Shown here piece after piece: positions 2,454-5,755 of a DNA stretch of 31,011 nucleotides. The first letter of the stretch is position 1. Every line of letters starts with the position of its first letter. The notes under the pieces were generated by a model, which was not told where the DNA came from, searched no databases, and worked only from the letters and a program-made list of their open reading frames with translations. A program made the position numbers and the translations under genes. The stretch is from a virus: the IMG/VR virus record IMGVR_UViG_3300008450_000277, positions 1-31,011 of that record; one strand, given 5' to 3'.

Positions 2454-2829
2454 ACGAAGAGCCATCTGCAAGGGATGTCAATTCTTCAATAAGGGATGGT
2501 GTGGAAAAGCATTCATTCCGGAAACGCATCGCATCAAAAAGAAAACATACCACACTTGTGGATGCAACGTATATCTGAAAACACAATTCAGTAATCAGCA
2601 TTGCCCAAATAACTTCTGGAGTAGCACGGGAAAGTTGACTGCTGAAGAAAGAGAAGCAATTAAGAATCTCATTGGAGAGATTAAAGGTGACACACTAACA
2701 AAGGAACAATATAACTTGCTCTATGACTATGCTGATAAAATAACTGGTGGCGTACATAGAAGAACATCGTGCGAACCTTGTTTGAAAGATTTGGTTTCGA
2801 AGTTGAAAGCATCTGTGCTTGATGTCTAA
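2422..2829 (+). CDS. Cys-rich putative zinc-binding protein
   Basis: The 135-residue protein carries an N-terminal cysteine cluster: ICKGCQFF, then GWCG, then HTCGC and finally QHCP. This resembles the zinc-ribbon-like small proteins common in phages of Bacteroidota. The C-terminal half is helical (KLTAEEREAIKNLIGEIKG) with a second CEPC pair near residue 120. Its start overlaps the upstream gene by 32 bases, indicating tight coupling. A nucleic-acid- or protein-binding role is plausible from the zinc-ribbon pattern; the precise function is unknown. It is the last gene before a 480-base gene-free region. Confidence 0.7.
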   Translation: MWFTAKQTIDERRAICKGCQFFNKGWCGKAFIPETHRIKKKTYHTCGCNVYLKTQFSNQHCPNNFWSSTGKLTAEEREAIKNLIGEIKGDTLTKEQYNLLYDYADKITGGVHRRTSCEPCLKDLVSKLKASVLDV

Positions 2830-2875
2830 CTTTGTCAAGCATTATTTTCTGTTTTATCATTGTGTATTATTTGGG

Positions 2876-2907
2876 AAGCAAGTCAAGTCTAATAACTTGG
2901 CTTGTTT
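2876..2907 (+). other. 13-bp imperfect hairpin downstream of the Cys-rich gene
   Basis: AAGCAAGTCAAGT (2876-2888) pairs with ACTTGGCTTGTTT (2895-2907) through 13 base pairs including two G-T pairs, with a six-base loop CTAATA. It lies 46 bases after the upstream stop codon. There is no long T-run right after the stem (the next bases are CGTTTATGG), so it may be an RNA-processing or stabilising hairpin rather than an intrinsic terminator. Confidence 0.5.
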
Positions 2908-2988
2908 CGTTTATGGTAGTTAAAGTTAGTAATGTTATTAACATATTCTTTTTTTTTTGTAAAAACCACCTAATATTTGTCCCACATA

Positions 2989-3016
2989 ACTATTCAATAA
3001 CCACCTGTTCAATAGT
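2989..3016. other. Hairpin presenting AACCACCT in its loop
   Basis: ACTATTCAAT (2989-2998) pairs with GTTCAATAGT (3007-3016), with one mismatch and one terminal G-T pair. The eight loop bases are exactly AACCACCT. The same octamer occurs 35 bases upstream at 2964-2971. The arrangement could be a protein-binding site; no known element is recognised. Confidence 0.35.
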
Positions 3017-3047
3017 TGTGTGAAATAGGGTTTCTCTATGAAACTTG

Positions 3048-3084
3048 AAGAGCAGTAAGGGTGGGTCTTGCTGCTCTTTTTTTT
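3048..3084 (+). terminator. Rho-independent terminator
   Basis: AAGAGCAGTAAG (3048-3059) pairs with CTTGCTGCTCTT (3067-3078) through 12 base pairs, with one T-G pair and a GGTGGGT loop. The stem runs directly into eight T residues (3077-3084). It would end transcripts from the nuclease, sigma-like and Cys-rich gene cluster before the structural block begins. Confidence 0.88.
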
Positions 3085-3205
3085 ATACATACTACACAAC
3101 TAATCATTGGCTATATTAGAGGAAGCAGCCTACACTTGCGACACATCAACGCTTGGAACAAGCAACTGCTCGATTGAGCGAGAACATTGTTTCTTTTTGG
3201 TAACT

Positions 3206-3267
3206 TTTTTCTTTCTTTTTTCTTTTTCTTTTTTACCTTTTTTTCTTTTTCTTTTTTCTTTCTTTTT
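3206..3267. repeat. Perfect 29-base homopyrimidine mirror repeat (H-DNA type)
   Basis: On the plus strand the left arm (3206-3234) has the run pattern T5 C T3 C T6 C T5 C T6. The right arm (3239-3267) has exactly the reverse order, T6 C T5 C T6 C T3 C T5. The four central bases are ACCT. The arms match at all 29 positions in mirror (not inverted) orientation. Mirror-symmetric polypurine-polypyrimidine DNA of this type can form intramolecular triplexes. It lies about 120 bases after a terminator and 42 bases before the next start codon. Confidence 0.92.
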
Positions 3268-3309
3268 AATGAATTATCATAATCACTTACAATACATTAC
3301 ATTTGAACA

Positions 3310-3615
3310 ATGAATCAAATACCACAAGATAAAATAGATGAAGTAATGCAGTTTGTTGCAAATACTGAAATGGACTTTTTAGTTCAGACATTAAAGGCAA
3401 AAAACTTCTCCTTCAAATCAGAGAAAGCACTTGCCAGATTTGTAAGAAACAATCTCATCAAGACAACAACAAAAGACACAATCACATATCACTACAAAGA
3501 ATATGGTACTGGTGTATTGCACTTTTTTTTCTCAATGACAAAAGAGATAGTAACGGATGGAGATGTATTCAAATTAAACCTTAAAATAGACAATGGAGAG
3601 AATCAAAATATGTAG
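3310..3615 (+). CDS. Hypothetical protein, 101 residues
   Basis: This is the first gene after the mirror-repeat region. The product has a helical N-terminus (DKIDEVMQFVANTEMDFLVQTL) followed by beta-like segments and a Lys-rich character, with no membrane segment. Its end overlaps the lipoprotein gene start by 23 bases, suggesting joint translation. The start has ACATTTGAACA-ATG upstream; the TACATTTG octamer at 3298-3305 matches a Bacteroidota -7 element, but it is too close to the ATG for a normal leader and has no -33 partner. Function is unknown. Confidence 0.7.
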   Translation: MNQIPQDKIDEVMQFVANTEMDFLVQTLKAKNFSFKSEKALARFVRNNLIKTTTKDTITYHYKEYGTGVLHFFFSMTKEIVTDGDVFKLNLKIDNGENQNM

Positions 3616-4228
3616 CATACTGATGCTTATTCTTTTTTTTAGTTGCAATCCAGATCAAATGATGATGCCATCAATGGCAGATGATTATGAGATGGAACAG
3701 AATCAAGTTAACACTTTACTTTATAATGAAGAAGGTCAGTTATTGCTTGACTTTATTCCTGCAATCCAACCATTCGTTAATGAAGGTTGCAATACTGCTT
3801 GGGATAATCTATCAGCTATTGTCAATCCAGATGGCTCACTAACATATTTTAATTCACTACCAAATTACACTGCCAGTCCTAATGACTTGGACAAGGGTAG
3901 ATTCACCTTTATTCATCAATGTCGCAATCCATACTTTGGAATCTTTGAAGGTGAAGAACAATATTCACAAATAGGTAGTAGTGGATGGATGATGCTGCCA
4001 ATAGATGATTATGGTTCTATGACTTGCAATGGACTTCAAGAGATAAGAACTTGGGTGCTTGACGAGTTGACTGGTCAATGGTATATGAATAGTCAAGTGT
4101 GTTGGGCTGGATATTTATGCAACGGACAAGGTGACTGCAATCAAGGATGGTCATTTGACCAAATAGAGTTCACAACATATCAAGAAGGGTATCTACACTT
4201 GTCATTAACACCAATAAATAATCAATGA
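3593..4228 (+). CDS. Predicted lipoprotein
   Basis: The 211-residue protein starts MERIKICSILMLILFFSC, a short basic head, a hydrophobic core and a lipobox-like FFSC at about residue 18, followed by NPD. This fits export and lipid attachment of the Cys, and the +2 Asn is common in outer-membrane lipoproteins. The mature part is Cys-rich (GCNTAW, QCRNP, MTCNG, VCWAGYLCNG, GDCNQG), suggesting disulfides outside the cytoplasm, and rich in Tyr, Asn and Gln. No catalytic motif was seen. Phage lipoproteins often alter the host surface or block superinfection; that role is inference. It overlaps the methyltransferase gene by ATGA. Confidence 0.75.
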   Translation: MERIKICSILMLILFFSCNPDQMMMPSMADDYEMEQNQVNTLLYNEEGQLLLDFIPAIQPFVNEGCNTAWDNLSAIVNPDGSLTYFNSLPNYTASPNDLDKGRFTFIHQCRNPYFGIFEGEEQYSQIGSSGWMMLPIDDYGSMTCNGLQEIRTWVLDELTGQWYMNSQVCWAGYLCNGQGDCNQGWSFDQIEFTTYQEGYLHLSLTPINNQ

Positions 4229-5436
4229 AAACAACAAAAACAACACCAGAGTACAAGGTGCAGCACGTTCCAATCAATTCTGTTAAAAGCAATGCTGACA
4301 ATCCACGAATCATCAAAGATGATAAGTTCAAGAAATTAGTCAAGTCAATATCAGAGTTTCCACAGATGCTTGAGTTAAGACCAATCATCGTTGATAATGA
4401 TATGATTATTTTGGGTGGTAATATGCGCCATAAGGCAGCTATGGAATGTGGGCTTCAGATGATACCAATAGTAGTTGCTGATGACTTAACTGAAGAGCAG
4501 AAAAAAGAGTTCATCATAAAAGATAACGTAGGCTTCGGTGAATGGGATTGGGAGTTGCTTGCTAATGAATGGGATAATGAGTTACTTGTTGAATGGGGCT
4601 TGGACGTGCCAGTTGATTATATGGTTGAACTGGATGCAGTAGAAGATGATTTTGATGTTCCAGAAGAAGGTTTGGAAACAGATATAGTGCTTGGAGATTT
4701 GATCGAAATAGGTCAGCACAGATTGCTTTGTGGAAGCAGTACAAATGCAGACGATGTTACTAAATTAATGAATGGTAATAAAGCTAATATGGTATTTACA
4801 GACCCCCCATATGGTGTAAGTTATGTAGGTGGAGTTATTTACGGAAATAAAATTAATACAACTCATAAAAGAGAAATGCTTAAAAATGATGAAGTTGATG
4901 TTTATGCAGATTTTATATCCTTATTGCCATTAGTAATTGATAATGGTGCTTTATATATTTTCTATGCAACAAGAAATTCATATGAATTATTTAAGCCATT
5001 AAAAGAAAATGGTATTGATATTATGTCTGTTTTAGCTTGGATTAAAATTAATACAGGATATGCGGATATGAATAGCCACTATAAAAACAGATACGAGCCA
5101 TTTGTATATTGTAAAATAGGACAAAAAACTAATTTTATTGGTGCAACAACAGAAAACACAACTTGGGAAATAGAAAAAGATAGAGATAATAAACTACACC
5201 CTACACAAAAGCCAATAAGTGTTCCATTAAGAGCTATTGGAAATCACGATGCAGAAATTGTAGCAGATTTATTTAGCGGCTCTGGCTCTACAATGGTAGC
5301 ATCACATCAACTGAATCGAAAATGCTACGGAATGGAACTTGATCCGAAGTACTGCCAAGTAATAATTGACCGAATGAAGAAACTCGATTCAACACTTGAG
5401 ATAAAAATAAATGGAAAACCTTATGAACAAAACTGA
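4225..5436 (+). CDS. ParB-like nuclease domain fused to N4/N6 DNA methyltransferase
   Basis: The 403-residue protein has two parts. Residues 10-125 form a ParB/Srx-like domain, including NPRI (26-29) and the signature GGNMRH (64-69). Residues 150-395 form a DNA methyltransferase with DPPY at 193-196 and the AdoMet motif FSGSGST at 350-356. DPPY before the AdoMet motif marks the beta-type order, which can be N6-adenine or N4-cytosine specific. Such fusions are common beside small terminase genes in phages, and the next gene is terminase-small-like. The catalytic centre (about 4755-5290) is markedly more AT-rich than the flanks, suggesting replacement of the target-recognition part by recombination. 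Confidence 0.93.
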   Translation: MKTTKTTPEYKVQHVPINSVKSNADNPRIIKDDKFKKLVKSISEFPQMLELRPIIVDNDMIILGGNMRHKAAMECGLQMIPIVVADDLTEEQKKEFIIKDNVGFGEWDWELLANEWDNELLVEWGLDVPVDYMVELDAVEDDFDVPEEGLETDIVLGDLIEIGQHRLLCGSSTNADDVTKLMNGNKANMVFTDPPYGVSYVGGVIYGNKINTTHKREMLKNDEVDVYADFISLLPLVIDNGALYIFYATRNSYELFKPLKENGIDIMSVLAWIKINTGYADMNSHYKNRYEPFVYCKIGQKTNFIGATTENTTWEIEKDRDNKLHPTQKPISVPLRAIGNHDAEIVADLFSGSGSTMVASHQLNRKCYGMELDPKYCQVIIDRMKKLDSTLEIKINGKPYEQN

Positions 5437-5755
5437 ACAACAAAAAAAGGCAATGCTTGATGCTCTGGAGAAATCTCTTGGCATCGTAACATCTGCTTGT
5501 CGAGCAGTTGGAATTGGAAGAACCACACACTATATGTGGATGGTAGATGACGAGGATTATAGAGATGCAGTTAATTCAATAGATGACATTGCGCTGGACT
5601 TTGTAGAATCACAACTGCACAAGCAAATCAAAGAAGGTGAAGTATCATCTACTATCTTCTACCTAAAGACCAAAGGAAAGCGAAGAGGCTATGTTGAGCG
5701 ACAAGAAGTAAGTCAAGTTGAACCAATCAAAATAGTAATCTCAGACGATATATGA
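5411..5755 (+). CDS. Small terminase subunit-like HTH protein
   Basis: The 114-residue protein begins with a helix-turn-helix: LEKSLGIVTSACRAVGIGRT followed by THYMWMVDDEDYRDAV. This is the pattern of Homeodomain-like phage small terminase subunits, in which a resting HTH reads GI.RTTHYMW. The remainder (FVESQLHKQIKEGEVSSTIFY, KTKGKRRGYVER) matches the oligomerisation region of that family. It follows the ParB-methyltransferase gene with a 26-base overlap, the usual neighbourhood. The large subunit is far away on the minus strand. An in-frame ATG at 5423 is an alternative start; 5411 is preferred for its AAAAATAA-ATG context. Confidence 0.75.
   Translation: MENLMNKTEQQKKAMLDALEKSLGIVTSACRAVGIGRTTHYMWMVDDEDYRDAVNSIDDIALDFVESQLHKQIKEGEVSSTIFYLKTKGKRRGYVERQEVSQVEPIKIVISDDI

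Follow-up and report, generated by a model that had tools for sequence, protein, structure and literature searches.

ENE/MALAT1-type triple helices, in which U-rich strands are arranged around an A-rich strand, occur in eukaryotic or herpesvirus RNA, whereas the tract described here belongs to a bacterial virus. The tract resembles these helices in that two U-rich strands flank a loop in mirror order, that a cap hairpin lies between the arms, in one version only, and that the separators within the strands need not be identical. It differs from them in that a matching A-rich strand was found neither in cis nor elsewhere in the window and six relatives, where a poly(A) tail would be invisible in DNA, and in that conserved flanking or lower stems were not seen by reading.

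The sequence rule for H-DNA is a homopurine-homopyrimidine mirror repeat with a short spacer (PMC4666352). With its homopyrimidine mirror arms, short spacer and isolated C residues, the window copy of the tract resembles such repeats; the exchange of C and G with run symmetry kept, the link to an RNA-like core and the conservation across phages set the element apart from them. The intrastrand triplex motif TMECO is present in 23 copies in the E. coli K-12 chromosome and folds within one strand; the cited study found no association of it with phages (PMC4666352). The phage tract is likewise a conserved intergenic motif of triplex type in prokaryotic DNA, but it is present in a single copy per phage where this was checked. 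Structured noncoding phage RNAs of the Rfam type share with the present locus an intergenic position, covarying stems, a promoter-like box and module exchange; the mirror-symmetric U-rich domain of the tract module is the difference. Rfam covariance models gave no match above the gathering score for positions 2800-3700 of the window or for the relative L154, with only sub-threshold noise in the window, and a literature search of incomplete coverage found no mirror-repeat element of such kind described for phages.

The window, i.e. the whole stretch of DNA analysed, is an IMG/VR virus record of 31,011 bases representing a small siphovirus-like genome, the genes of which include portal, tape measure, terminase and holin. 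Comparison of related contigs shows that the tract is kept mirror-symmetric in ~60 related uncultured phages, that its arms change together and that it is always linked to a conserved core. The conserved mirror points to an unrecognised nucleic-acid device beside an RNA-like motif.

Geometry of the mirror tract

The mirror tract occupies positions 3206-3267 of the window and is composed of two 29-base arms and a centre.

3206..3234, plus strand: mirror arm 1, TTTTTCTTTCTTTTTTCTTTTTCTTTTTT, with runs T5 C T3 C T6 C T5 C T6
3235..3238, plus strand: centre of the tract, ACCT, 4 bases
3239..3267, plus strand: mirror arm 2, the exact reverse of arm 1

The letters, read directly, confirm the coordinates and the run order of the perfect 29-base mirror with ACCT in the middle that had been predicted. 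The symmetry stops at both outer borders (3206 and 3267), and an extra T at 3205 adjoins arm 1 outside it. Both arms are pure T/C and the spacer is 4 bases, in keeping with the H-DNA sequence rule. The outer ends of the tract also form a 17-nt direct repeat, CTTTTTTCTTTCTTTTT (3204-3220 and 3251-3267), a consequence of the nearly mirror-symmetric order T6-C-T3-C-T6. This repeat leaves the inner runs of the tract unexplained; the original prediction that a direct repeat does not fit thus holds for the inner runs and has to be amended for the ends, where a direct component exists.

Slippage by single bases is common in T runs, and chance or drift in AT-rich DNA, or an artefact of assembly, could be considered on that account as the source of the mirror. 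When the runs of the tract were shuffled (20,000 shuffles), arms of at least 29 bases appeared in 0.01%, or about 1 in 10,000; base shuffles never gave them, the longest arms being 24, and shuffling of the run order within each arm, with the centre fixed, gave such arms in 0.5%. In 1.14 Mb of fetched viral DNA, a redundant set that includes the window, every perfect mirror whose arms reach 17 bases, with a spacer of up to 15, belongs to this element. The element is represented there by three versions of differing sequence, namely that of the window, a T5CT4CT3CT5CT5-ACC type and a T5CT4CT3CT5CT4-ACC type. The shuffles and this uniqueness agree with the earlier view that AT-rich drift is an unlikely source, and shuffles of equal run content, which had been proposed as a comparison, are indeed rarely symmetric. 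Furthermore, ~60 contigs from many samples carry a tract that is altered in sequence yet still mirrored. This conservation contradicts chance or artefact, which can be given next to no credence.

Relatives of the window locus

Relatives were sought with a pattern taken from the conserved part directly 5' of the tract, without any tract letters.

3133..3171, plus strand: conserved core, CACTTGC-N-GCTTGGA-N-GCAACTGCTC, 39 bases in all relatives of the flexible-gap pattern (3133-3179 with the core hairpin)

The core pattern retrieved 27 contigs and a second form of the pattern 54, while the upstream VRR-NUC gene, used as an anchor with the element itself unused, gave 80 loci, some of them on contigs already known. 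Besides the window, 59 IMG/VR contigs carry the core; these comprise the second-form contigs, L015 from the first form, and the gene-anchored L109, L113, L132 and L140. Two close relatives share the window locus, and the entire gap is conserved with them, upstream hairpins included. No match was obtained in a nucleotide search of a phage collection with the window locus or with the element of a relative, in a tblastn search with two window proteins, or in a scan of bacterial genomes with the protein of the upstream gene; the portal protein of the window has a ~33% match to a Nonlabens phage. A looser core pattern gave scattered matches in bacterial genomes, which lack the T tract and were taken as chance.

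Structured core and leader

The tract is situated directly 3' of the core, which has an RNA-like fold. The other elements of the region are as follows.

2971..2979, plus strand: promoter-like box TAATATTTG (putative), a near match to TAnnTTTG
2983..3022, plus strand: conserved leader hairpin, loop CCACC at 3001-3005
3047..3079, plus strand: terminator-like hairpin followed by a T run, kept in L004 and L005
3109..3130, plus strand: weak upstream stem, GGCT...AGCC
3168..3179, plus strand: core hairpin, GCTC-GATT-GAGC
3298..3305, plus strand: promoter-like box TACATTTG (putative), matching TAnnTTTG

The stem of the core hairpin covaries among relatives (GCTC/GAGC, GCCC/GGGC and ACTC/GAGT). The weak upstream stem reads GGCA...TGCC in L005, which is a double change seen directly in the letters, and other relatives have at this site a hairpin, CTTCG/CGAAG or CTGAG/CTCAG, with a loop able to pair downstream. 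The leader loop CCACC is complementary to GGTGG (3060-3064) in the loop of the next hairpin, and the equivalents of this loop pair in L004 and L005 are CCCACC/GGTGGG. In most relatives, a TAnnTTTG box precedes a stem whose loop, CCCCC, is able to pair with the following GGGGG and T run; this leader stem covaries, and the loop pairing does so as well, e.g. CCCTC/GAGGG. The counterparts in the window are the hairpin with the CCACC loop and the terminator-like hairpin with the GGTGG loop.

The two promoter-like boxes of the window were compared with TAnnTTTG, the Bacteroidota -7 box; a TAnnTTTG-like motif is present upstream of the leader structure in both phage groups. The TACATTTG box sits 3' of the mirror tract and immediately precedes the 3310 gene's start codon. 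The tract had been regarded as a lone element after a terminator (3048-3084); it instead makes up the 3' portion of a structured module that is conserved.

Conservation of the mirror

The T-run lengths are mirrored at every core-bearing locus with a readable tract, in 33 distinct tract strings. The mirrored tract assumes at least four run-length configurations among relatives, given here outward from the centre.

Configuration 1: 6,5,6,3; the window and, nearly, L005
Configuration 2: 3,2,4-5,5-6,3; L004
Configuration 3: 4-5,5,3,4; ACC type, e.g. L016 and L011
Configuration 4: 3,3,2,4 around GTGCTTACAC; e.g. L031

The centre of the ACC type is ACC (once AAC) flanked by T, and the mirror axis leaves a 4-base spacer; in a common second version, the centre measures 14-15 bases and contains a GTG/CAC cap hairpin between the arms. 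When the axis is fixed at a 4-base spacer, whereby the inner run of arm 2 loses one T, the arms are identical in three of the four configurations and off by 2 units in L004. Mirror order gives a joint permutation p of 1.75e-5 over the four configurations with the axis so fixed, and 0.0005 with the axis unfixed; the axis was chosen post hoc and the strength depends on this choice. Direct order is not significant.

Several pairs of relatives reveal changes in both arms. The inner runs are 4|5 or 5|6 among ACC types, one T being gained in both arms, and 3|4 or 4|5 among GTGCTTACAC types (L015, L073), again with the change in both arms. In L004, T>C changes relative to the window are located at mirrored positions in both arms, and in L024 the centre has moved by one base with the axis unchanged. 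The exceptions are a run that is one T shorter in one arm of L005, an extra G in the tract of L004, and an A opposite T in L073.

These observations bear on the possibility that the tract is a U-rich spacing element, which binds a protein or pauses RNA polymerase and is mirrored because both ends have similar spacing needs, with no contact between the arms. T-runs of 2-7 with C or G separators in nearly every copy, the free choice of C or G as separator and the promoter-like box 3' of the tract would suit such an element. A reader of single strand or duplex has polarity, however, so that direct order would be expected, and direct order does not fit; nor does this reading lead one to expect one-base changes that occur in concert in the two arms. 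We consider this reading unlikely.

The separators between T-runs are C in the window and C or G in relatives, where they are often unlike between arms. Such C/G differences are seen in L004, L005, the L013 group, L020, L025 and L052; in L020 the separators are G in arm 1 and C in arm 2, in L025 this is mostly reversed, and the L031 type has one C/G and one G/C separator position. The homopyrimidine purity of the mirror is thus not kept in relatives, and only the T-run lengths are mirrored. Since C/G swaps would harm a strict DNA triplex, the selected feature appears to be the run-length mirror rather than homopyrimidine purity.

The tract was originally assigned to the H-DNA type. On a reading as plain H-DNA, it would be an intramolecular DNA triplex that forms under supercoiling and acts as a barrier to replication or transcription, with no role for RNA. 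The window copy does satisfy the mirror rule (PMC4666352), its 4-base spacer suits, and another purine partner was not found in the window and six relatives. Strict H-DNA is thus possible in the window, but competence for it is not conserved: many relatives lose homopyrimidine purity by C/G interchange between the arms while the run-length symmetry stays. In addition, the core to which the tract is invariably joined covaries in the manner of an RNA, and the spacer of the second version measures 14-15 bases and holds a hairpin. Plain H-DNA is considered improbable.

Comparison with related phages, which had been suggested as a check, finds the mirror retained at the equivalent locus, and an unmirrored T/C tract was not met there. 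The mirror is very probably under selection at the nucleic-acid level. Few independent events underlie the four configurations, and lineages have evidently recombined with one another.

Exchange of modules in the slot

Among 65 gene-anchored loci with enough sequence, 32 contain the core and the mirror. The other 33 comprise 18 in which a different conserved module of ~310 bases is located in the same slot and 15 with something else. The ~310-base module, found in L152 (about 4861-5170; VRR-NUC-relative 1360-1670), L111, L103, L118 and 14 more, is RNA-like and belongs to syntenic phages; its similarity to Rfam RF02932 (Betaproteobacteria-1) is weak and sub-threshold (E 0.011). The exchanged block has homologous flanks to its left and right, which shows that modules have been replaced. 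The suggestion that the tract could mark an origin, a packaging signal or a barrier is not supported as stated, and phages of the same gene order carry a different module there.

A covarying, pseudoknot-like leader at ~1290-1370 after the VRR-NUC start, in L154, L134, L152 and others, is common to both module types and consists of the TAnnTTTG box, the stem with the CCCCC loop, and the GGGGG and T run. A third slot type, in L084 (about 5500-5700, minus strand), seems to have the same architecture of promoter, stem with C-run loop, G-run and T-run. We also note that a ParB N-terminal domain is fused to an N6/N4 DNA methyltransferase at 4225-5436 of the window, and that ParB-like proteins of various lengths lie directly 3' of the slot in relatives.

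Coding potential

The mirror could be a by-product of T-rich codons if the tract encoded a hydrophobic F/L/S-rich tail on a short conserved N-terminus, MTTLA.HQCLERATALL. An in-frame ATG is present in 43 of the 48 distinct copies, 36 are open through the tract, and core changes, when weighted by frequency, lean to third codon positions. Nevertheless, the frame entering the tract varies (21/14/13), the ATG is lost in 5 of the 48 copies, the window among them, and the window frame ends at a TAA right before its perfect 29-base mirror. Moreover, one change in the L132 stem is compensatory yet non-synonymous, and coding offers no reason for mirrored run lengths. A conserved start with a frame kept through the tract was thus not found across the 48 distinct copies, and coding as the cause of the mirror was rejected on the ATG losses, the variable frame and the window stop; a peptide tail is a very unlikely explanation. 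A short peptide in relatives, though not in the window, is possible.

The open reading frame MTTLA[IST][HYN]QCL[ED]RATALL, with its hydrophobic tail of variable frame, begins 10 bases before the core TTGC in L025, L031, L055 and others. Another open reading frame, started by TTG, extends across the tract at 3107-3313 of the window and is also present in L004 and L005; its end falls within the ATGA of the next gene in each of them, and by eye the core substitutions have no codon pattern in its frame.

Proposed three-stranded structure

We tentatively propose, from sequence comparison, that a phage RNA cassette has the tract as its 3' domain, and that the two arms would run antiparallel and form a triple helix around a shared purine or poly(A) strand; the chances of this reading are real, though somewhat less than even. 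The cassette, intergenic in Bacteroidota-type phages, would comprise in order a promoter-like box, a leader in the form of a pseudoknot or of kissing hairpins, the structured core and the mirror U/T-rich tract. Two pyrimidine strands that are antiparallel beside one purine strand, through Watson-Crick and Hoogsteen interactions, would require mirror order. The arms would turn back around ACCT or the short cap hairpin to give a pyrimidine-purine-pyrimidine triple helix. Its purine strand may come from the tract's own template DNA, either intramolecularly or with the arm of the nascent RNA as the third strand, or it may be homopolymeric A. The 3' end of the cassette transcript, which would precede the structural genes, may be anchored, paused or protected by such a helix.

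Mirror order is made neither by Watson-Crick hairpins nor by polymerase copying, and readers of one strand favour direct order, so that a three-stranded structure is favoured. A matching A-rich or purine tract was not found elsewhere in the window and six relatives; the purine partner, if any, would therefore be the tract's own complement or simple poly(A). Isolated C residues are favoured in triple helices at neutral pH, and the C residues of the tract are isolated within its T-runs. The GTG/CAC cap hairpin at the centre of the second version fits antiparallel arms. A general Watson-Crick hairpin between the arms was rejected, since most facing separators are C/C. Against a triplex, a strict DNA version would contain poor base triples wherever C and G are interchanged between the arms. 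H-DNA could do without the RNA core, and an RNA clamp would depend on an A strand.

The most specific form of the proposal is a new class of phage RNA cassette, the 3' domain of which would be a mirror-symmetric oligo-U clamp. Its two antiparallel U-rich arms would form a triple helix with a captured purine strand, either nascent template DNA or poly(A), and coevolution of run lengths from arm to arm would replace base-pair covariation. We hold this form to be rather doubtful.

Implications

Mirror symmetry is neither copied by polymerases nor made by Watson-Crick pairing, and its upkeep through sequence change therefore suggests selection for a three-stranded structure. Such selection is rarely seen so directly by comparative genomics, and no case in phages was found in the literature searched. 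If the oligo-U clamp is true, it would possess a signature of mirror covariation that is invisible to standard RNA structure searches. With 62 bases and several compensating versions, the tract provides a natural small test object for asking whether bacteria and their viruses use triple helices in functions that are under selection.
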